Shown here: positions 40,021 to 50,432 of the stretch, one piece after another
How the letters are laid out: each line of letters starts with the position of its first letter
Numbering within the stretch: the stretch's first letter is position 1
Source of the DNA: Devosia indica
Lineage (GTDB): Bacteria; Pseudomonadota; Alphaproteobacteria; Rhizobiales; Devosiaceae
Reading direction: 5' to 3'
Length of the DNA: 64,000 bases
NCBI RefSeq assembly: GCF_003056405.1
Contig: NZ_PYVZ01000004.1
Coordinates: 124,001 to 188,000 of the forward strand
Made by a program: the position numbers and the translations under genes
The notes under the pieces: generated by a model
Told to the model about the DNA's origin: nothing
The model's database searches: none
What the model saw: only the letters and a program-made list of their open reading frames with translations

Positions 40021-40791
40021 TCAGATTGCCAGATACTCGTGGCGGAGGTCGGCGTTCTCGAGGACCTCCTTGGCTGAACCGGCAAAGGCGACTTCGCCTG
40101 TATCCAGAATGACCGCGCGATCTGCCAGCTTGAGCGCCGCCACCGCGTTCTGCTCAACAATCACTGTCGTGATACCCATTGGCTTGATCGAATGAAGAAT
40201 GCGTTCGATTTCCTGCACGATTACCGGCGCCAGCCCTTCATAGGGCTCGTCGAGCAGCAAGAGTTTGAGGTCGCGCGCCAAGGCCCTTGCGATCGCCAGC
40301 ATCTGCTGTTCGCCACCCGACAAGGTGACCCCTTCCTGGGTGCGGCGTTCGGCGAGACGCGGGAAGCTTTCATAGATCTGTTCAAGGCTCCACCCATTGC
40401 CGGGCGCGACCTTGGCCAGAGTGATGTTCTCCTCGACAGTCAGACCCTGGATGATCCGGCGATCTTCGGGAACGAGCTGAATGCCGGCGCGCGCGGCCTG
40501 AAAGCTGCTCATCTGGTGGATCGGCATGCCATCGAGCCAGATTTCGCCCTGCCGCATCTGCGGATTGTCGGTGCGGGCGATGGTGCGCAATGTGGACGTC
40601 TTGCCCGCGCCGTTGCGGCCGAGCAAGGCGAGGATTTCGCCCTTTCGGACATCAAGTGAGATTCCCTGCACGATGTAGCTCTCGCCGTAATAGGCGTGCA
40701 TGTCGCGCACCGAAAAGAAGGGGCGGGTGGTTTCCAGTTCTGCGGCATTGCTGCCGATGGCCGTTTCAGATTGCATGGCGACTGAACTCAT
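40021..40791 (-). CDS. Branched-chain-type ABC transporter ATPase (LivF-like)
   Basis: A 256-residue ABC ATPase of the LivF class. Walker A is LLGRNGAGKTSTL, signature LSGGEQQMLAIARAL, Walker B LLLLDEPYEGLAP with EGLAPVIV typical of LivF, and H-loop VIVEQN. An N-terminal extension of about 27 residues precedes the domain. Last gene of the importer operon; it overlaps the LivG-like gene by one base. Confidence 0.92.
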   Translation of the reverse strand: MSSVAMQSETAIGSNAAELETTRPFFSVRDMHAYYGESYIVQGISLDVRKGEILALLGRNGAGKTSTLRTIARTDNPQMRQGEIWLDGMPIHQMSSFQAARAGIQLVPEDRRIIQGLTVEENITLAKVAPGNGWSLEQIYESFPRLAERRTQEGVTLSGGEQQMLAIARALARDLKLLLLDEPYEGLAPVIVQEIERILHSIKPMGITTVIVEQNAVAALKLADRAVILDTGEVAFAGSAKEVLENADLRHEYLAI

Positions 40792-41555
40792 CAGTGAGCT
40801 CCTCCGAGATAGGCTTCCTGGACCTTGGGGTTGCCGCGCACTTCGTCCGGGGTGCCGTCGGCGATGATGCGACCCTGGGCGAGTACGGAGATCTTGTCGG
40901 CAAGCGAGAACACCACATGCATATCATGCTCGATGATCACCTTGGTCATGCCACGGCTTTTGATCTTCTTGAGAAGCTCGATGGTGGTATTGGTGTCATG
41001 GCGGCTCATACCGGCCGTTGGTTCGTCGAGCAACAGCAGGCGCGGGTGCTGGATCAGGCACATGGCCAGTTCCATGCGGCGTTTGTCACCGCGGCTGAGG
41101 CTGCCAGCCTGCATGTCCCGGCGGTTAAGCATGCCCACATCCTCAAGCATGTGTTCGGCCTCCTCACGGATGGTCGTTTCGCTGTCCAGGGCGCGCAGCA
41201 TGTTGAGTGTGAAGGTACCATCGCGCTTGGCAAAGGCAGGGATCATGACATTGTGCAAGACTGACAGATCGGAGAAGATTTCCGGCGTCTGGAAGACGCG
41301 GGCAATGCCGAGCTGGTTGATCTGGTAGGGCTTGCGACCGGTCAGAATGGCGCCGTCGAATACCACCTGGCCGCTGGACGGCGCCAGCTTGCCGATGATG
41401 ACGTTGAGCAGGGTCGACTTGCCCGCTCCGTTGGGGCCGATGATGGCGTGGGTCTTGCCCTCCTCGACCTGCAGGTCGATGTCTGCCAGCGCATGAAGAC
41501 CCCCGAACCGCTTGTGAACGTCCGCCACGTGCAGGACAATATTGGAATTTGCCAT
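40791..41555 (-). CDS. Branched-chain-type ABC transporter ATPase (LivG-like)
   Basis: A 254-residue ABC ATPase of the LivG class: Walker A IIGPNGAGKSTLLNVI, LivG-type ARVFQTPEIF (Q-loop), signature LSRGDKRRMELAM, Walker B LLLLDEPTAGMS and H-loop IIEHDM. The signature departs from LSGGQ, as in several non-amino-acid members of the family. Encoded 11 bp after the LivM-like permease. Confidence 0.92.
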   Translation of the reverse strand: MANSNIVLHVADVHKRFGGLHALADIDLQVEEGKTHAIIGPNGAGKSTLLNVIIGKLAPSSGQVVFDGAILTGRKPYQINQLGIARVFQTPEIFSDLSVLHNVMIPAFAKRDGTFTLNMLRALDSETTIREEAEHMLEDVGMLNRRDMQAGSLSRGDKRRMELAMCLIQHPRLLLLDEPTAGMSRHDTNTTIELLKKIKSRGMTKVIIEHDMHVVFSLADKISVLAQGRIIADGTPDEVRGNPKVQEAYLGGAH

Positions 41556-41566
41556 ATCGCTTGTCC

Positions 41567-42706
41567 TTATTCTGCGGGCTGATGCTGATGTGACTTGGCG
41601 CCAGGCGGGTCGGAGCGGCGGGCGGTCGCCGCCATGCGGCGCACGCCTTCCATGATCCCGCCGGGCAGGAAGATCACGATGATCACAAAGACCAGGCCAA
41701 GGGTGAGGTGCCAGCCATCACCTACGAACTTGCTGGTCACCTTGACCACGATTTCGGCGAGCCCTTCGGGCAAGAAGCTCCAGAACTGGGTCAGGATGTT
41801 ATCATTGAGGGCCGAAAGAATGTTCTCGAAGTATTTTATGATCCAGGCCCCGATCACCGGGCCGACCAGCGTTCCCACGCCGCCCAGAATAGTCATCAGC
41901 ACGACTTCGCCCGAGGCTGTCCATTGCATGCGTTCGGCACCAGCCAACGGGTCGGTAACGGCGAGCAGGGCGCCGGCCAGGCCAGCATACATTCCCGAAA
42001 TCACGAACGCAGACAGGGCATAGGGCCGCGTGTTGAACCCGGTGAACTGCATGCGCGTCTGATTGGACTTGATGGATTTGAGCATCATGCCGAATGGCGA
42101 GCCAGCAACACGTTGTGCGAAAAAGAACGAGAGGATCAGGAAGCCGGCGCAGAAGTAGAAGCCAGCATAGCCGCCCAGTTGTTGACCCAGCAAGGTGGGG
42201 ACAGGTTGGCCGACAAATGTTTGCCCGATCGCCGCGTCAAGGACGCGGGGGTCGTTCAGGGTGAGTTGGAGCCCGGTTTCGCCATTGGTAATCGGGGTGA
42301 GCACCGAATAGGCCAGATTGTAGCTCATCTGGGCGAAGGCAAGGGTCAGGATCGAGAAGTAGATGCCCGAGCGTCGCAGCGAGAGGAAGCCGATGATCAG
42401 GGCGAACAGGCCCGAGATCAGAACGGCAAAGATCATGGCGGGAATGGCGTCCAGTGTCAGCAGCTTGAATGACCAGACTGCCGCATATGAGCCGACGCCG
42501 AAGAAAGCGGCGTGGCCGAAGCTGAGATAGCCGGTGAGACCAAACAGGATATTGAAGCCGACGGCGAAGATGCCGAAGATCATGAAGCGCTGCAGCAGGT
42601 CCGGATAGCCGGCGCCGAAAGGCGTGAGCCAGATCGGCATGGTCAGCACCACGACGGTGAAGCCCAGAAGAAGCAACAGATCATTGCGGGACATGAAGTT
42701 GGCCAT
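41567..42706 (-). CDS. Branched-chain-type ABC transporter permease (LivM-like)
   Basis: A 379-residue inner-membrane permease with about ten TM helices. LivM features: [44 protein letters not shown] and the EAA-like [26 protein letters not shown] near the C-terminus. The C-terminal 25 residues are soluble and basic. An insertion of about 45 residues lies between TM segments (about 160-205). Pairs with the LivH-like protein. Confidence 0.91.
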
Positions 42707-42707
42707 G

Positions 42708-43739
42708 TCAGCTCTCCATCACACCGCGGCGGCCCATCAGACCACGCGGGCGAACCAGTAGAATAACGACGGCAACGAGATAGATGATGATCTGATCGAT
42801 GCCGGGAATGACGTCCTTGACCTGGGTCATGGACGCAAAGGACTGCAGAATGCCCAGCAGGAAGCCAGCGGCGACGGCGCCGGGCAGGGAGCCCATGCCG
42901 CCCACGACCACCACCACAAAGGAAAGGACCAGGAAATCCATGCCGAGATGGTAATTGGGTGGGAGCAGGGGCGTGTACATCACGCCCGCCATGCCTGCGA
43001 CGACCGCAGCCAGGCCGAACATGATGGTGAAGCGCCGATCAATATTGATCCCCAGTAGCCCCACTGTCTCACGATCCGCCATGCCGGCGCGCACCACCAT
43101 GCCGAAGGTCGTGAACTGGAGGAAGGCAAAGACGCCGCCAATGACAATGGCCGAGAAGAGGAAATAGATCAGGCGCCAAAGCGGGTAGGTGATGACGTTG
43201 GCCTGGAACCCAATCCAGGAGCCGATGTCAGCCGCGCCGCGCAGATCGGTGGGCATGGGCTGGGGGATGGGGTTGGGTCCGAAGATTGACTTGATCACTT
43301 CCTGCGCCACGATGGCCAGGCCGAAGGTCACCAGGATCTGCTCGGCGTGGGGGCGCTTGTAGAAGTGCTTGATGATGCCGCGTTCCAGCGCGATGCCGAG
43401 AAGCAGCATGATCGGGATGGTGATCAGGATCGAGAAGGGTACGGAGTAATTGACCAGTACCGCGCCGAAATCTCCAAACCAAGCCTGCACCAGCGGGGTG
43501 CGGATTTCCAGTGGGGCGCCCCAGGGTGATGTCTGGGTCGGGTCGATGGTGACGGTTTCAAGGGTCAGGAACTGACGGAACATAACGGCACAAAAGGCAC
43601 CAAGCATGAACAAGGCGCCATGGGCAAAATTCACGACCCCAAGCGTGCCGAACACCAGGGTGAGACCAAGGGCGATCAGCGCATATGCGGCGCCTTTGTC
43701 GAGCCCGTTGAGAAATTGCAGAAAGATGACTTCGAACAT
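42708..43739 (-). CDS. Branched-chain-type ABC transporter permease (LivH-like)
   Basis: A 343-residue permease of the LivH class: [42 protein letters not shown] at the N-terminus (in family order), [14 protein letters not shown] and [24 protein letters not shown] near the end. Start at the ATG giving [10 protein letters not shown] soluble insertion (about 58-85) follows the second helix. The gene lies 160 bp downstream of the substrate-binding-protein gene and 1 bp before the LivM-like gene. Confidence 0.91.
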
Positions 43740-43864
43740 TTGATGCTCCGCTAGTGGCGAGGTCCTCACGATCCCCGCGCGACGCCGTCACCGGATGCTC
43801 CGAAGACCCCGTTCTGCAGGTGTGCAGGCGGGAGCACCCGGCGGACCGGGCACTGGCGGACCTG

Positions 43865-43893
43865 AAGGGGCAAGGATCGCTCCCTGCCCCCTT
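43865..43893 (-). promoter_or_regulatory. Hairpin between binding-protein and permease genes
   Basis: A roughly 11-bp imperfect GC-rich stem with loop tcgc begins 6 bp after the binding-protein stop and lacks a following T-run. Such hairpins often stabilise the upstream mRNA or attenuate read-through, giving excess binding protein over permease. Inferred. Confidence 0.4.
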
Positions 43894-43899
43894 GCTGGT

Positions 43900-45258
43900 T
43901 TAGGCGCAGACAGGGGCCGGTTCTGCCGGGCCGAGTTCGCCGCCGAAGATGGAGGGGTCGTAGTCGACGGTTGCAGCGTCGACTTCCTCGACCACGTTGA
44001 GCACGTCGTATTCGCTGGTGGGGGCATCATTGCCCTGCACCACGAGCACGGACTTCATGCATTGGTGATCTTCGGCGCGATAGAGCGTGCGGCCATTGCC
44101 CATGCCGTCGAACTCGTGGCCTTCCAGCGCCTTGATGACTTCGGGCGGATAGAAGGTGCCTGCGCGTTCCACTGCGTCTGCATAGAGCAGCGTCTGCACG
44201 TAGCACGTGTGCGCGGCCTGCGAGGGCGGGGAGCCATAGGCAGCACCGAACGACTTGGTAAAGGCGATGGAGCCAGGGTCCTGCAGGTTCCAGTGCCAGT
44301 TCGACGTGCCAAAGATGCCCTTGATGTTCTCACCGGCGCCCTTGGCCATCAGTTCGGAGAACAGCGGCACGACGATCTGGAAATCCTTTCCGTTGGCCTG
44401 ACGATCGCGCATGCCGAACTGGACCGCCTGGGTCAGCGAATTCACCATGTCATTGCCGTAGTGGTTCAGGATCAGGACATCCGCACCGGAGTTGAGAACC
44501 GGGGTGAGGAACTGCGAGAAGTCGCCTGCACCAAGCGGGGTGCGCACGGCCTCCACAGTGTCCCAACCAAGGGCCTCGGTGGTGTTCTTGATCGATTCTT
44601 CCTGGGTCCAGCCCCAAGTGTAGTCGGCAGTCAGGTGATAGGCGCGACGGTCATTGCCATAGGCATTGCTTAGCACCGGACCCAACGCCGTGCCGGACTG
44701 ATAAGCATTGAAGAAATGACGGAAGCCGTAGCGCCGCTTGTCCTTGCCGGTGGTGTCATTGGAATGGGTCAGGCCCGCCATGAAGATGACGCCCATTTCC
44801 TGGCACAGGCCCTGCACGGCAACGGCTTCGCCCGAGGACGAACCGCCGGTGATCATGATGGCGCCATCGCGTTCGATCATGCGAGTGGCACCGGCACGGG
44901 CCACGTCGGACTTGGTCTGGCTGTCGGATGTGACATAGCCGACCTTCTTGCCCAGGATACCATTGCCTGTCAGTGCAGATGGGGTCAGGACGTTGAGCAG
45001 ACCACCGTCGCCTTCACCATTGAGATGGGCAATGGCCAGCTCATAGGCTTTCTGTTCGTCTGCGCCTTCTTCTGCGTAGGCACCTGTCAAAGGCAGATTG
45101 AGGCCAAGGGTAACCGTGTCGCCAGTCGGATTGTTGCAGAATTCCTGCGCCCAGGCGCCTTTGGTGAACATCATGGGGGCCACGCCCGAACCGATAATGC
45201 CGGCCATACCTGTCTGCAGAAGCCTGCGGCGGGACATCCCGCTCTTCAGAATTGTCAT
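43900..45258 (-). CDS. ABC transporter substrate-binding protein (Tat signal)
   Basis: A 452-residue periplasmic binding protein of the Leu/Ile/Val-binding (type I) class. The N-terminus has a twin-arginine motif (MSRRRLLQTG) and a hydrophobic stretch ending GAWAQE. The mature protein starts with TVTLGLNLPLTGAYAEEG and contains IMITGGSSSGEAVAVQGLCQEMGV and the HFFNAYQSG hinge region. First gene of the five-gene importer. The ligand is unknown; binding proteins of this type carry amides, urea and short organic acids as well as amino acids. It diverges from the XRE-regulator operon. Confidence 0.88.
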   Translation of the reverse strand: MTILKSGMSRRRLLQTGMAGIIGSGVAPMMFTKGAWAQEFCNNPTGDTVTLGLNLPLTGAYAEEGADEQKAYELAIAHLNGEGDGGLLNVLTPSALTGNGILGKKVGYVTSDSQTKSDVARAGATRMIERDGAIMITGGSSSGEAVAVQGLCQEMGVIFMAGLTHSNDTTGKDKRRYGFRHFFNAYQSGTALGPVLSNAYGNDRRAYHLTADYTWGWTQEESIKNTTEALGWDTVEAVRTPLGAGDFSQFLTPVLNSGADVLILNHYGNDMVNSLTQAVQFGMRDRQANGKDFQIVVPLFSELMAKGAGENIKGIFGTSNWHWNLQDPGSIAFTKSFGAAYGSPPSQAAHTCYVQTLLYADAVERAGTFYPPEVIKALEGHEFDGMGNGRTLYRAEDHQCMKSVLVVQGNDAPTSEYDVLNVVEEVDAATVDYDPSIFGGELGPAEPAPVCA

Positions 45259-45404: not shown

Positions 45405-45424
45405 GTTGTCAATTCGTTGACAAC
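45405..45424. promoter_or_regulatory. Perfect 8-bp dyad upstream of the XRE/ScfR-type regulator gene
   Basis: gttgtcaa-ttcg-ttgacaac lies 25 bp before the regulator ATG, in the 190-bp divergent promoter region. The form (two 8-mers with a 4-base spacer) recalls the TTTGCAAA-N4-TTTGCAAA site reported for the related PccR. Two direct attgtaa repeats (45354-45360 and 45373-45379) lie nearer the transporter start. Likely operator, inferred. Confidence 0.5.
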
Positions 45425-45448: not shown

Positions 45449-47077
45449 ATGCGTGCACCAATCGGGTTCCGGATCAGCAACAGGCGGAAATCACTCAAGA
45501 TTTCCCAGGCGGCGCTGGCCCGATTGGTGGGCATATCGCCGAGCTATCTCAATCTAATTGAAAACAACAAACGCGACGTTGGCGGAGCGCTATTGCAGCG
45601 CGTGGCACTGCATCTGAACATCGACATCGACGATCTGACAGGGCAGGCCGAACAGAAACTGTTACAAGACCTGGAAGAGGCCTATGCCGAACCTATGGTC
45701 GAGTCGCTGCCATTTCAGCCCGACGAGCGGCGGCAAATGGTTGCGCAGTATCCCGCCAGCGCGCAGGCTATGGCGCGATTGCATCGTGCCTATGCCGAGG
45801 CGGTGGCCAGTGCTGACGCCTTTGCCGACCGTTTGCGTTCTGATCCCTTGCTGAGCCAATTGCTGCACCAGGTGCTTTCCGGGGTTACCGCAGTGCGCTC
45901 GAGCGCGGAAATTCTTGAAGAGGTGGTCGACCTGGACGAGGGCGAGCGCGGGCGGTTTCTTGCCTCGATCGGGCGGGAGACCCGCAATCTTGGCGCGGTA
46001 GCGCGCAATCTGATCGGCCATTTCGAGAATGCCAGCGCCAGCCGGCGCAGCGTTTCGGCGGCGCGCGAGATCGATGACCTGCTCATCGAGCGGACGAATT
46101 ATTTTCCAGCACTGGAAGTCGCCGCAGAAGGCCTGCGGCTGGACGTTGAGCGACACGGAATATTTGGGCCGGAAAGCCTTGTGGCGGCGCTCGAGACGCA
46201 GTTCGGCGTGCGGATCGCCATCGGCGGGCCGCCGCCATCAGGTCCGGCAGATTTTCCGGGGCAGTATCGCTATTTTCCTGAGCTGGCGACCATGTGGCTG
46301 CAGGGCGCGACGACGCTGGCTACGCGACAGTTCCAGCTTTCCCGGCTCTACGGCGAGCTGGCCGCCGGATCGACTATTGATGCGGAGCTGGCCGAGTCCA
46401 ACCTAGCGTCTCCTGCGGCTCTGCGGTTAGCGCGACGGGCGCTTGGATCTTATCTGGCCGGCGCGATGGTGTTTCCCTATTCCCGTTTCCTGGAGCAGGC
46501 AGAGACGACGCGCTATGACATCGACCAGCTTCGTCAAGTTTATTATGCCAGCTACGAACAGGTTGCCCATCGTCTGGTCTCGCTTCGCCGCCCCGGTGAG
46601 GAGGGTGTCCCGTTCGGCTTTCTGCGCTCAGATCCAGCCGGCCGGCTGACCAAACATTTTCCGTTGCCCGGCTTGCTGCTGCCCTATTCGGGGCACGCCT
46701 GCCCCCTATGGGCGATCTATGGCGCTTTTCGTACGCCTGACATGCCGGTGCGCCAGGTGGTGCGGTTCTCGGACGGCTCGCGTTATCTCTTTGTCGCCCG
46801 TACGGTGCAGCGCCGGGCTGCGGCATTTCACGAACCACCTGTGATGGCCTCGGTCATGCTGGCCTGCAATGTGTTGCATGCGGACAAGACGGTCTATGCG
46901 CAAGGCCTGGACCTGGGCAATACCGGTGCCGATGTGGAAGTTGGCCCAACCTGCCGGCTGTGCACGCGTTCGAACTGTGCCAGCCGGCAGGAAGAGCCCT
47001 TGGCGCCGGCTCCGGGCCGCGAAAATCTGCGCACCGCCCTGGTCCCCAATGGTTTTGCCCTTGGCGAGGGCGGGTGA
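45449..47077 (+). CDS. XRE/ScfR-type transcriptional regulator with inserted DHp-like domain
   Basis: A 542-residue regulator. Residues 8-62 are an XRE HTH (NRRKSLKISQAALARLVGIS, YLNLIENNKR). About 205-385 is ImmA/IrrE-like but lacks a HExxH motif. About 400-515 matches the ScfR C-terminal domain, with Cys418, Cys473, Cys502, Cys505 and Cys510. Proteins of this class (RamB, PccR) sense short acyl-CoAs and control acetate or propionate metabolism. Residues 133-192 form an extra segment that aligns with the DHp helices of the kinase in the same operon: LHQVLSGVTAVRSSAEIL against SHEVRTPMTSIRSFSEIL, with His140 at the phospho-acceptor position. GGGAGG precedes the chosen ATG by 6 bases. Confidence 0.85.
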   Translation: MRAPIGFRISNRRKSLKISQAALARLVGISPSYLNLIENNKRDVGGALLQRVALHLNIDIDDLTGQAEQKLLQDLEEAYAEPMVESLPFQPDERRQMVAQYPASAQAMARLHRAYAEAVASADAFADRLRSDPLLSQLLHQVLSGVTAVRSSAEILEEVVDLDEGERGRFLASIGRETRNLGAVARNLIGHFENASASRRSVSAAREIDDLLIERTNYFPALEVAAEGLRLDVERHGIFGPESLVAALETQFGVRIAIGGPPPSGPADFPGQYRYFPELATMWLQGATTLATRQFQLSRLYGELAAGSTIDAELAESNLASPAALRLARRALGSYLAGAMVFPYSRFLEQAETTRYDIDQLRQVYYASYEQVAHRLVSLRRPGEEGVPFGFLRSDPAGRLTKHFPLPGLLLPYSGHACPLWAIYGAFRTPDMPVRQVVRFSDGSRYLFVARTVQRRAAAFHEPPVMASVMLACNVLHADKTVYAQGLDLGNTGADVEVGPTCRLCTRSNCASRQEEPLAPAPGRENLRTALVPNGFALGEGG

Positions 47078-47120: not shown

Positions 47121-47516
47121 ATGGGGGGAACATTGGCCATCGATATTTTGATCGCCGAAGATGAGCCTAGCATTCTGGAGTCGCTCGACTTTATTCTGCG
47201 CCGGGCAGGGTGGAGCGTGGAATCGGTCACCGATGGCGAGGCTGTGCTTGAGCATGTGCGCCGAGAGTCGCCGCGCATCCTGGTTCTTGATGTCATGCTG
47301 CCCAAGCGCAGCGGCTTCGACGTGCTCAAACAATTGCGCTCCGAAGAGCTGACCAGGGTCTTGCCGGTCTTGATCCTGACCGCCAAAGGGCAGCAGCAAG
47401 ACCGGCGCATAGCCGAGGAATTGGGAGCCGATGGTTTTGTGACCAAGCCCTATTCCAACGCTGAAGTAGTGGGAGCAGTACGCCAATTGCTGGGTGATGA
47501 TGACCGCGCGGCGTAA
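47121..47516 (+). CDS. Single-domain response regulator (REC only)
   Basis: A 131-residue stand-alone receiver. Phospho-acceptor Asp57 (LVLDVMLP), acidic pair Glu13-Asp14, Thr87 (ILTAKG) and Lys109 (TKPY) are all in place. There is no output domain, so it must pass phosphate on or act by protein contact. It lies between the XRE/DHp regulator and the symporter-kinase gene. GGAGGGGAG lies 10 bases before the ATG; a TTG at 47133 is an alternative start. It overlaps the next gene by about 20 bp. Confidence 0.9.
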   Translation: MGGTLAIDILIAEDEPSILESLDFILRRAGWSVESVTDGEAVLEHVRRESPRILVLDVMLPKRSGFDVLKQLRSEELTRVLPVLILTAKGQQQDRRIAEELGADGFVTKPYSNAEVVGAVRQLLGDDDRAA

Positions 47517-47733
47517 GCTGGAGAGCGGTGTTTTCGTCTTTGCGGTGTTCGGTGCGCTGCTGATTATTCCGCCGTTGGTATATATCTTCAATCACCCGAT
47601 CCTGTTTTTCGGGATTCCACAGATCGTCGTTTATCTGTTCGGGGTCTGGGCGCTGATGGTCATCGGCGCCGGCATTCTGACGCATTATCTGCCCCATGCC
47701 TCTGACGAGGATAGCCACGAAGGGGACGAGTGA
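47497..47733 (+). CDS. Small two-helix membrane protein (possible symporter accessory subunit)
   Basis: A protein of about 78 residues with two TM helices (about 12-32 and 42-65), a basic N-terminus (ARRKLE) and an acidic C-terminus (SDEDSHEGDE). Its size, topology and position directly before a sodium/solute-symporter gene recall the DUF485/DUF4212 small subunits that accompany ActP-type symporters. Sequence membership is not certain. Start at GTG 47494, ATG 47497 or ATG 47500. Its end abuts the kinase start. Confidence 0.7.
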   Translation: MMTARRKLESGVFVFAVFGALLIIPPLVYIFNHPILFFGIPQIVVYLFGVWALMVIGAGILTHYLPHASDEDSHEGDE

Positions 47734-50432
47734 TGCTTTCGGCCGACTTCGTCATTGTGACAGCTATCGTCTATGTGGGGCTGCTGTTCATTCTGGCCTA
47801 TTTCGGCGACCGGCATACGCGCGCCAACAAGTCGTCTTTCCTGCGCTCGCCGGCAGTCTACACACTCTCGATTTCGGTCTATTGCACGAGTTGGACCTTT
47901 TACGGAGCCGTCGGCAATGCCGCGCGTGGCGGGCTCGAGTTCCTGACCATCTATCTTGGGCCCACTATTGTTTTTGTCGGCTGGTGGTTCATATTGCGCA
48001 AGCTGGTCCGGATTGGACGCATGCAGGCCATTACCTCGATCGCCGATCTGTTGTCGTCGCGCTATGGCAAGTCGAGCCGGTTGGCCGTGCTGGTGACGCT
48101 GATCGCCGTGATTGGCATCACTCCTTATATTGCGCTGCAGCTCAAGGCCATTACGGCCTCTATCCAGGTGGTGGCAGAATCAGCCGAGGGAGCGCGTGGC
48201 AGTCTTGTGGGTGTGGACGATGGTGCCCTGGCGTTCGGTATCGCTGCGGGCATGGCGCTGTTCACCATTCTGTTCGGCACGCGGAATGTCGATGCTAAGG
48301 AGCAGCACCATGGCGTGGTTGCCGCCATTGCGTTCGAGGCAGTGGTCAAACTCGCGGCGCTGCTGGCTGTCGGCGTATTCGTCACTTTCGGGCTGGGTGG
48401 CGGCTTTGAGTCGATCTATCGCGGCGCTGAGGCGGCAGGTATCGCGATCTATGAAGACGACCCTTTCGGCCCGCGCTGGGTGGCGATGACGGTGCTGTCG
48501 GCCGCTGCGATCATCTGCCTGCCGCGCCAGTTCCAGATCACCGTGGTCGAAAACGCCAATGAGGATCACCTGCGCGTCGCAGGCTGGGCCTTCCCCGCCT
48601 ATTTGCTGCTGATGAGCGTGTTTACGCTGCCCATTGCGCTTTATGGCATGACCGTCATGCCAGAGGGTGCCAATCCGGACATGTTCGTGCTGACGTTGCC
48701 ACTGTCCGAAGGGCAATCCGGTATTGCATTGCTTGCCTTTATCGGCGGTTTCTCATCTGCGACATCAATGATTATCGTGGCCTCGATCGCCTTGTCGATC
48801 ATGGTGTCGAACCACATCATCATGCCGATCATCCTGCGCTCGTCCAATGTTGGGCAGGGCGACGGGCAGGGCGTGCGCCGCCTGCTGCTGCTGAGCCGCC
48901 GAGTGTCGATCGGGGTGATCCTGACCCTGGGCTTTCTCTATTTCTCGCTGACTGGCGATGATGCGCTGGCGCCAATCGGACTTATTTCCTTTGCTGGTGT
49001 CGCGCAGTTTCTGCCGGCTATCCTGGCAGGTCTCTACTGGCGCGAGGCCGCACAACGCGGGGCGGCGAGTGGTATCCTGGTTGGATTTGTTGTCTGGGCC
49101 TGGACTATGTTTCTGCCCAGTTTTGAAACGGTGTTGCCCTGGGTGTCGGACGTCATGGAAAGTGGCCCATGGGGCATTGGTTTCCTGCGGCCGGAAAACC
49201 TGTTCGGTCTGAATGGACTCGATCCTCTGGTGCACTCGGTGTTCTGGAGCCTGCTGCTCAACAGCGTCTTTCTGGTCATCGGTTCGCTTGTATCAAACCA
49301 GTCTGCGCTCGAGCGGATCCAGGCGGCTGCCTTTGTCGATGTGTTCCGCCGCCGCCCCTTTGCCCATCGCGGATTTATGCCCGGATCGGCGACGGCGAAT
49401 GACCTCTATTTCGTGGCCGAGCGCGTGCTGGGTGAAAAGCGGGCCGCGACGCTGTTCGAGACTGCAGCGCAGGAACGGGGTGTCGAACCGGCGATGCTGG
49501 AGCCCACGCCCGAGTTCATCTCCCGGCTTGAGCGCGAGTTGGCCGGATCCATCGGTTCGGCCTCGGCGCATGTGATGCTGGCAAAAGTGGTGGCTGGCGG
49601 CGACGTGTCGCTCGAAGAGATGATGCAGATGGCCGATGAAACCCAGCAGGTGATCGAGTACTCCCAGGAGTTGGAAAAGACCTCCGCGGAGTTGCGGGTC
49701 ACTGCACGCAAGCTGGAAGACGCCAATGCGCAATTGCGCGAGCTGGACAGCCAGAAGGACGAGTTTCTCAGCCAGGTGAGCCACGAAGTGCGCACACCGA
49801 TGACCTCAATCCGTTCGTTCTCCGAAATCCTGATGGAGCCGGGGGAGCTCAATGACGGGCAGCGGCAAAGGTTTATCTCCACGATTCACAATGAGAGCCT
49901 GCGCCTGACCAGGCTTCTCGACGAAATACTGGACCTTAGTGCACTTGAGCGAGGAGAGCGTAGCTGGCAGAACGCGCCGGTGGATGCAGAGGAGGCCCTG
50001 GATCGGGCTGTCGCCGTCTGTGACGCCTTGCTGCGGCAGAAGGGCATGCGGGTGGAGTTTGGCGACAGGGCGCACACCACCATGGTCGACGGTGACAGCG
50101 ACCGGCTCTGTCAGGTGTTCATCAACCTGATATCTAATGCGGTAAAGTACAATGATGCCGATCATCCCATCGTTCGGGTGAGTTCGGCGGTGCGAGCAGG
50201 TCAGTTCGTGGTCGAGGTGGCCGATAATGGCCCGGGTATTTCCAAGACGGATAGGAAGCTCATTTTCGAGAAGTTCTGGCGTGGCGTAGAAGGCGGCGGA
50301 GATCAAGGTGGTGCTGGCCTAGGCCTGGCCATCAGCCGGCAGATAGTGGCCCGGATGAACGGGACGCTGGAACTGGTGCCCGGACCCCTGCCAGGGGCGT
50401 GTTTCCGGGTGCGGCTGCCGGTCATTAAATAG
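47733..50432 (+). CDS. Sodium/solute symporter-histidine kinase hybrid (CrbS/CbrA-like)
   Basis: An 899-residue sensor. Residues 1-520 are an SSS/PutP-type domain with about 13 TM helices (SVYCTSWTFYGAVGNAA near 49, IGGFSSATSMIIVASIALS near 338). A linker and coiled coil (about 560-675) follow, then the DHp domain with His684 in SQVSHEVRTPMTSIRSF and the ATPase domain with N-box FINLISNAVKYN, G1 ADNGPGIS and G2 GGAGLGLAIS. CrbS/CbrA kinases respond to acetate, histidine or carbon supply and usually signal to a REC partner, here the single-domain regulator upstream. ATG with AGGGG 7 bases upstream is chosen over GTG 47730. Confidence 0.92.
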   Translation: MLSADFVIVTAIVYVGLLFILAYFGDRHTRANKSSFLRSPAVYTLSISVYCTSWTFYGAVGNAARGGLEFLTIYLGPTIVFVGWWFILRKLVRIGRMQAITSIADLLSSRYGKSSRLAVLVTLIAVIGITPYIALQLKAITASIQVVAESAEGARGSLVGVDDGALAFGIAAGMALFTILFGTRNVDAKEQHHGVVAAIAFEAVVKLAALLAVGVFVTFGLGGGFESIYRGAEAAGIAIYEDDPFGPRWVAMTVLSAAAIICLPRQFQITVVENANEDHLRVAGWAFPAYLLLMSVFTLPIALYGMTVMPEGANPDMFVLTLPLSEGQSGIALLAFIGGFSSATSMIIVASIALSIMVSNHIIMPIILRSSNVGQGDGQGVRRLLLLSRRVSIGVILTLGFLYFSLTGDDALAPIGLISFAGVAQFLPAILAGLYWREAAQRGAASGILVGFVVWAWTMFLPSFETVLPWVSDVMESGPWGIGFLRPENLFGLNGLDPLVHSVFWSLLLNSVFLVIGSLVSNQSALERIQAAAFVDVFRRRPFAHRGFMPGSATANDLYFVAERVLGEKRAATLFETAAQERGVEPAMLEPTPEFISRLERELAGSIGSASAHVMLAKVVAGGDVSLEEMMQMADETQQVIEYSQELEKTSAELRVTARKLEDANAQLRELDSQKDEFLSQVSHEVRTPMTSIRSFSEILMEPGELNDGQRQRFISTIHNESLRLTRLLDEILDLSALERGERSWQNAPVDAEEALDRAVAVCDALLRQKGMRVEFGDRAHTTMVDGDSDRLCQVFINLISNAVKYNDADHPIVRVSSAVRAGQFVVEVADNGPGISKTDRKLIFEKFWRGVEGGGDQGGAGLGLAISRQIVARMNGTLELVPGPLPGACFRVRLPVIK

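Follow-up and report, generated by a model that had tools for sequence, protein, structure and literature searches.

In the usual two-component arrangement, receiver (REC) and DNA-binding domain are fused in one protein. The CrbS/R, RpuS/R and CbrA/B systems are built on SLC5/STAC kinases, in which a transporter-like N-terminus is joined to HisKA and HATPase domains; regulators of the CrbR and RpuR type are, in the accessible portions of the literature, LuxR-family response regulators. Histidine-bearing DHp domains without kinase activity are found in Spo0B, ChpT and PhyT. The first two are phosphoryl donors to another REC protein. PhyT receives it via its His from the single-domain SdrG, with no kinase step, and hands it to a further REC protein, as described in the available part of the source (PMC5898713). 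The accessible text on DivL describes a pseudokinase that keeps its PAS and ATPase domains. Although DivL is no kinase and has Tyr in place of the His, its DHp reads phosphorylated REC (REC~P); position H+3 is important for this binding (PMC4211667). ScfR (or IsaR) regulators, among them PrpR, RamB, PccR and MccR, combine HTH, IrrE-like and ScfRs domains with a CX2CX4C motif, which in PrpR is an iron-sulphur ligand, according to the part of the paper at hand (PMC6765138).

The locus described here lies in the window, that is, the whole stretch of 64,000 nucleotides of Devosia indica DNA that was analysed. Its features are as follows.

45406..45423, no strand assigned: palindrome TTGTCAA-TTCG-TTGACAA, 25 bases upstream of the regulator ATG; possible operator
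45449..47077, plus strand: XRE-DHp-ScfR regulator, 542 residues (Pfam: HTH_3 11-63, Peptidase_M78 275-376, ScfRs 379-519)
45824..46048, plus strand: DHp (HisKA-like) stretch, residues 126-200; profile-profile match to the kinase DHp 99.6%; model helices 133-158 and 164-204
45866..45868, plus strand: codon of His140, aligned with kinase H685; His in 70/79 sequences
46952..46978, plus strand: CX2CX4C motif, Cys502 to Cys510; found in 77/79 sequences, the window included
47121..47516, plus strand: REC-only response regulator with phospho-acceptor D57 (Response_reg 9-120 of 131 residues; D57 and K109 in 70/70)
47494..47733, plus strand: small hydrophobic ORF between REC and kinase; adjoins the kinase in 65/65 same-strand loci
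47730..50432, plus strand: transporter-like sensor histidine kinase, 900 residues, H685 (Pfam: HisKA and HATPase_c)

The regulator has the ScfR/IsaR layout of HTH, IrrE-like and ScfRs domains, and its best solved relative is Mycobacterium PrpR. The DHp sets it apart: two ScfR paralogues in the same genome are without one, and most of the ScfR matches listed for the class sample end ahead of it. Like Spo0B, ChpT and PhyT, the regulator bears a His on a DHp without kinase activity; unlike them, it holds this DHp inside a DNA-binding protein, and the window operon encodes no second REC. The parallel with DivL and DivK is that the DHp probably serves as the input for a REC that is a separate protein, although DivL is a pseudokinase and the protein here a transcription factor. 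The kinase shares the transporter-like N-terminus of the CrbS/R type, whereas the REC has no output domain and it is the DNA-binding protein that carries a DHp. In terms of two-component wiring, the output sits on an acceptor-type domain, which leaves the receiver free.

The conserved architecture is real, and no description of a DHp inside a DNA-binding regulator was found in the searchable literature, which was seen in part and lies largely outside subscription journals. A candidate counterpart is Paracoccus Pden_1785, a member of a ScfR sequence network; its gene lies in a cluster with a two-component system, a connection not followed in the accessible text of PMC10370305, the sole paper in the searched literature to name it.

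The original prediction was that residues 133-192 of the regulator, encoded by 45845-46024, align without gaps to the DHp of the operon kinase and place His140 on its phospho-acceptor His. Counting from the ATG at 45449, the coordinates are correct, and His140 does fall on H685. The gapless register extends over 61 residues (regulator 132-192, kinase 677-737) and holds 21 identities, the next best placement on the kinase having 12. BLASTP aligns the two proteins at E 4e-9 over 94 positions, 31 of them identical, and opens a single 2-residue gap immediately ahead of the DHp. The match had been said to run through to the motif LIGHFE. As a pattern of hydropathy it does; identities are sparse past residue ~181, where the BLASTP alignment ends. 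Column-mean hydropathy of regulators and kinases correlates at 0.80 in this register, compared with no more than 0.26 in any of 50 other shifts and no more than 0.38 in any of 391 other windows of the regulator.

Comparison of profiles leads to the same register. The regulator DHp matches the DHps of the operon kinases at 99.6% (E 3.8e-24) and 26 other HisKA domains of its own genome at 97.9% (E 3.8e-13), while five control comparisons (linker, IrrE part, kinase coiled coil) reach 0.2-3.2%. Apart from the regulator, a search of the genome with the DHp profile brings up the operon kinase at 2.9e-14 and a further protein at 0.13; by Pfam the same genome has 27 HisKA matches, 26 of them above cut-off. 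Taken alone, the window regulator scores 14 bits against HisKA (PF00512), under the curated cut-off of 26.9; among 19 of its relatives, 18 have HisKA matches at E<=0.1, the best at 7.1e-5. Against the sequences of the PDB the DHp profile finds several kinases at E 0.08-1.9 only, among unrelated helical proteins, one of which ranks top at 0.014. These alignments identify regulator residues ~126-200 as a DHp hairpin of the HisKA type, homologous to its counterpart in the operon kinase.

Models of the structure were consulted in two forms. A full-length AlphaFold2 model built with six Devosia sequences has a mean pLDDT of 46 and was used for helix positions only. A model of fragment 96-205 has a mean pLDDT of 72, with helices at 133-158 and 164-204 and block pLDDT values of 76-84 over 136-195. 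The expectation had been that a structure model would show the hairpin with His140 on helix 1 and recover HisKA or Spo0B folds. The first half is borne out by this moderate-confidence model, which places His140 on the first helix of a two-helix hairpin; as to the second half, the fold searches listed no histidine kinase. Foldseek with the fragment gave no match at E<=0.001, the query being a single-chain model of a domain that acts as a dimer, and the 50 matches listed by VIA-align consisted of designed three-helix bundles, FAT domains and similar folds, with no histidine kinase among them.

Relative to its ScfR paralogues the DHp is, from the alignments, an insertion. Both paralogues align with the regulator up to ~124-133 and resume at ~203-207, and in one of them 11 residues stand opposite 78 of the DHp regulator. 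In the other, BLASTP extends the N-terminal match to 179; this extension overlaps the C-terminal match and we read it as spurious. With a profile of HTH plus DHp, 44 of the 385 genomes of the class sample (the present one included) were matched over almost the full length at E <= 4.5e-47. Among the matches listed, the next ones end at about position 142 or earlier, save two at 170 and 186, so that the matches form a two-peaked distribution. The phylum sample gave almost full-length matches in 32 of 398 genomes, every one in the same class. Five named loci with the regulator, at 70-96% identity, are all Devosia.

Where the insertion came from can be approached through the DHp tree and through pairwise identities. 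In the tree, 29 regulator DHps form one clade (99.1/100); the best group joining regulators and kinases also takes in 11 of the 26 remaining HisKA domains of this genome (97.9/61). Identity of a regulator DHp to the kinase of its own locus ranges from 22 to 44%; in 24 of 25 cases, L131 being the exception, it is higher than the identity to the closest of those 26. We consider it likely that the DHp was captured from the operon kinase.

Conservation was assessed in an alignment of the window sequence with 78 homologues, of which 30 came from the order sample (chosen because their match covered the DHp), 5 from named Devosia and 43 others from the class sample; 56 sequences remained after a 70% identity filter. 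His is present at position 140 in 70/79 sequences and in 49/56 after filtering, and this is the most conserved column of the DHp, ranking 10 of 462 overall (56 sequences). The conservation on which the original prediction had staked His140 is broad, and it has exceptions. Nine homologues carry Leu (L051), Gln (L064, L120, L125), Phe (L139-L141, L143) or Tyr (L142). Two of them, L051, from the same genus, and L064, have the REC and kinase still beside the regulator. Conservation of His140 favours phosphoryl chemistry at this site; the nine homologues without it, among them L051 with its REC and kinase in place, indicate that His is not required everywhere.

Most kinase-specific residues of the DHp have been lost. 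As predicted, the Glu and Pro that follow the phospho-acceptor are gone from the window regulator (Q141 at H+1, G145 at H+5), and there is no ATPase domain (no HATPase_c match at E<=1). Across the 56 regulators H+1 is Q in 17, R in 16, E in 7, A in 4 and other residues in the remainder; with D in about three more, counted by eye, an acid is present in about 10/56. H+4 is T in 31, S in 21 (as in the window), N in 2 and A in 1. In HisKA kinases the acid at H+1 is required for kinase and not for phosphatase activity, while T or N at H+4 is required for phosphatase and not for kinase activity, on the evidence in the accessible text of PMC3510030. With the H+1 acid mostly gone and H+4 kept as T, S or N, the regulator DHp looks kinase-dead, yet able to face a receiver. 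The main specificity sites of EnvZ are T250, L254 and A255 according to the available part of PMC2991266. In our alignments T prevails at H+7 and S at H+11, both in the regulators (41/56 and 52/56) and in the kinases (62/67 and 61/67), H+12, the third EnvZ site, is Phe in 66/67 kinases and variable in regulators, and H+3 mostly differs between the two. H+15 is also conserved in the regulator DHp. Across regulator-kinase pairs the kinase side is almost invariant.

The REC-only gene had been placed between regulator and kinase, where it is indeed found at 47121-47516. Besides D57, it conserves D14 and K109 in 70/70 sequences, with E or D at 13 and T or S at 87 in all; Pfam recognises no output domain in it. 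The small ORF that follows, which the original prediction does not mention, has no clear Pfam family, the best match being DPM3 at 0.046. The kinase retains the H, E, R, T and P of its HExRTP motif in 67/67 readable copies. Its residues 1-560 have no Pfam match whatsoever, and residues 8-465 match the solved 'histidine kinase' 10ed at 1e-69. This match, the label 'sodium:solute symporter' given to the Paracoccus counterpart and the known build of CbrA and CrbS suggest a transporter-like kinase, which we take to be SLC5-like. That counterpart belongs to a Paracoccus ferrooxidans module annotated as XRE regulator, response regulator, hypothetical protein and sodium:solute symporter, with His at the site.

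REC and kinase genes are found together with the regulator in 68/79 loci, in keeping with the predicted linkage. They lie on the strand of the regulator in 65 of the 78 homologue loci (about 4-5 kb away in L111) and on the opposite strand in two (L137, L138). Eleven loci are without both neighbours: two have the REC only (L102, L114), one the kinase only (L116) and eight neither within ~7 kb. In ten of these eleven genomes (all but that of L116) a kinase with an adjacent REC is encoded elsewhere, 8-9 kb off in four. As a separate observation, L114 and L165 (G199) show one REC gene immediately following that of the regulator and another next to the kinase gene on a different contig. Seven of the unlinked loci are also His-less, which at face value would suggest that loss of His accompanies loss of the operon ([[66,4],[2,7]], Fisher 3.7e-6); we set this association aside, the seven loci amounting to three families. 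In four of the seven, kinase and REC are 8-9 kb off, and a kinase is retained in 13/13 genomes examined. In the class sample all 44 regulator genomes also carry the kinase, whereas 9 of the 53 genomes with a full-length kinase have no regulator, so that in some genomes the REC must act on something else.

The REC is without an output domain and the regulator is the sole recognised DNA-binding protein of the module, so the REC most likely acts on the regulator; and because the DHp is the kind of domain that RECs bind, it most likely acts through the DHp. We accept the regulator as a DHp-bearing transcription factor, most likely addressed by a stand-alone REC. The original prediction suggested a Spo0B-like relay from kinase through REC to His140, or REC docking on the transcription factor, combined with acyl-CoA sensing. 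The analysis supports it in part: the homology of the DHp, the well conserved His, the linkage to REC and kinase and membership of the ScfR family hold, and the relay, the docking and the binding of acyl-CoA are putative. The mechanism that we infer would begin with autophosphorylation of the transporter-like kinase on H685 and transfer of the phosphoryl group to D57 of the REC, transfer from kinase to REC being a standard two-component step. REC~P would then dock on the DHp bundle of a dimeric regulator in the pose that RECs adopt on kinases, and His140, in most lineages, would accept the phosphoryl group or aid its removal. The resulting alteration of the DHp and the neighbouring helical linker would change DNA binding by the pair of HTH domains, the ScfR part contributing acyl-CoA information.

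Taken jointly, that regulator, REC, small ORF and kinase constitute one signalling module, that the REC docks on the regulator DHp and that His140 takes part in most lineages is a reading that we favour with moderate confidence. Within it lies a narrower one, a phosphorelay that ends on the DHp His of a DNA-binding protein, the phosphoryl group coming backwards from the stand-alone REC and being combined with acyl-CoA sensing. Phosphotransfer to His140 is plausible from the conservation of the residue, and the complete switch we advance only tentatively, as a possibility that falls somewhat short of an even chance. If docking or transfer is true, the locus would represent another kinase-to-promoter link, with transporter-type and acyl-CoA sensing brought together in a single protein. 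Single-domain receivers with unknown targets would gain a possible output, and there would be a pattern to search for, namely a DHp without ATPase domain within a DNA-binding protein.

The REC, or REC~P, may instead bind the DHp purely as an allosteric input, with no phosphoryl group passing to His140, whose role would be in packing or in contact with the phosphoryl group. This explanation fits the nine homologues in which Leu, Gln, Phe or Tyr stands in for His, including the two that retain both neighbours, and it fits DivL, which binds DivK~P with a Tyr and whose affinity was left unaltered by Y550H (PMC4211667, accessible text). A His kept in 70/79 sequences, at the tenth most conserved of 462 columns, suggests chemistry, and we think it unlikely that docking is all there is. 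Homologues that naturally have Phe, Gln, Tyr or Leu instead of His lend themselves to testing this. Chemistry of a different kind would be involved if the regulator DHp were to dephosphorylate REC~P and so damp the kinase signal, the regulator itself being mainly under acyl-CoA control. Loss of the kinase residue in most regulators together with T, S or N at H+4 is the pattern of phosphatase-only HisKA mutants (PMC3510030, in the part available); but H+4 is Ser in 21/56 and in the window, unlike the T and N that were tested, and the REC would be left without a known output. We consider such a role improbable.

The REC could also be bypassed, the regulator DHp pairing with that of the kinase or being phosphorylated by the kinase ATPase domain, with membrane tethering of the regulator. 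Although the two DHp sequences are alike, the acid for attack on ATP is mostly gone and a REC is nearly always beside the regulator-kinase pair; we regard direct contact of this sort as very improbable. Least credible of all, in our judgement, is that the DHp is a leftover, a helix pair for dimerisation only and without signalling role: the structure model is moderate, the HisKA score is under cut-off and at eight loci both REC and kinase are absent within ~7 kb, but His140, H+7, H+11 and H+15 are conserved and the kinase co-occurs in 44/44 genomes.

The kinase-only loci give some hints that a free REC may serve DHp-bearing effectors more broadly. In 7 of the 9 (L178, L180-L185) a protein of ~700 residues, here called X, is encoded between REC and kinase. 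Pfam finds PAS and RNase_T exonuclease domains in the X proteins of L180 and L183, the latter with a weak HisKA match (0.01), and a DHp-like stretch without His is readable in X of L180-L184. That a DHp should occur either in the regulator or in X was considered as a rule and dropped. Among the 24 regulator genomes examined, G276 and G530 encode a full-length X too, and no X of full length turned up in G564 and G254, which are two of the nine genomes that have the kinase but not the regulator. In G381 and G205 a form of X without the DHp stretch occurs alongside the DHp regulator.

By analogy with PrpR, the regulator is expected to bind acyl-CoA and a [4Fe4S] cluster. Regulators of ~430 residues (L131-L134 and L046-L050) retain both the DHp and the CX2CX4C motif; judging from their length and from two sequences, the middle IrrE-like part is largely absent. 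The palindrome at 45406 is possibly an operator through which the regulator controls its own gene. It is the sole site of its kind in the genome, but its exact form is present in just 4/79 loci, like sites being found at L038, L040 and L054, and we do not treat it as an established operator. It falls within a longer, GTG-started reading of the regulator gene, which favours the ATG at 45449. On the minus strand, at 40021-45258, lies a divergent set of five genes that by eye would make up an ABC importer (two ATPases, two permeases and one binding protein).
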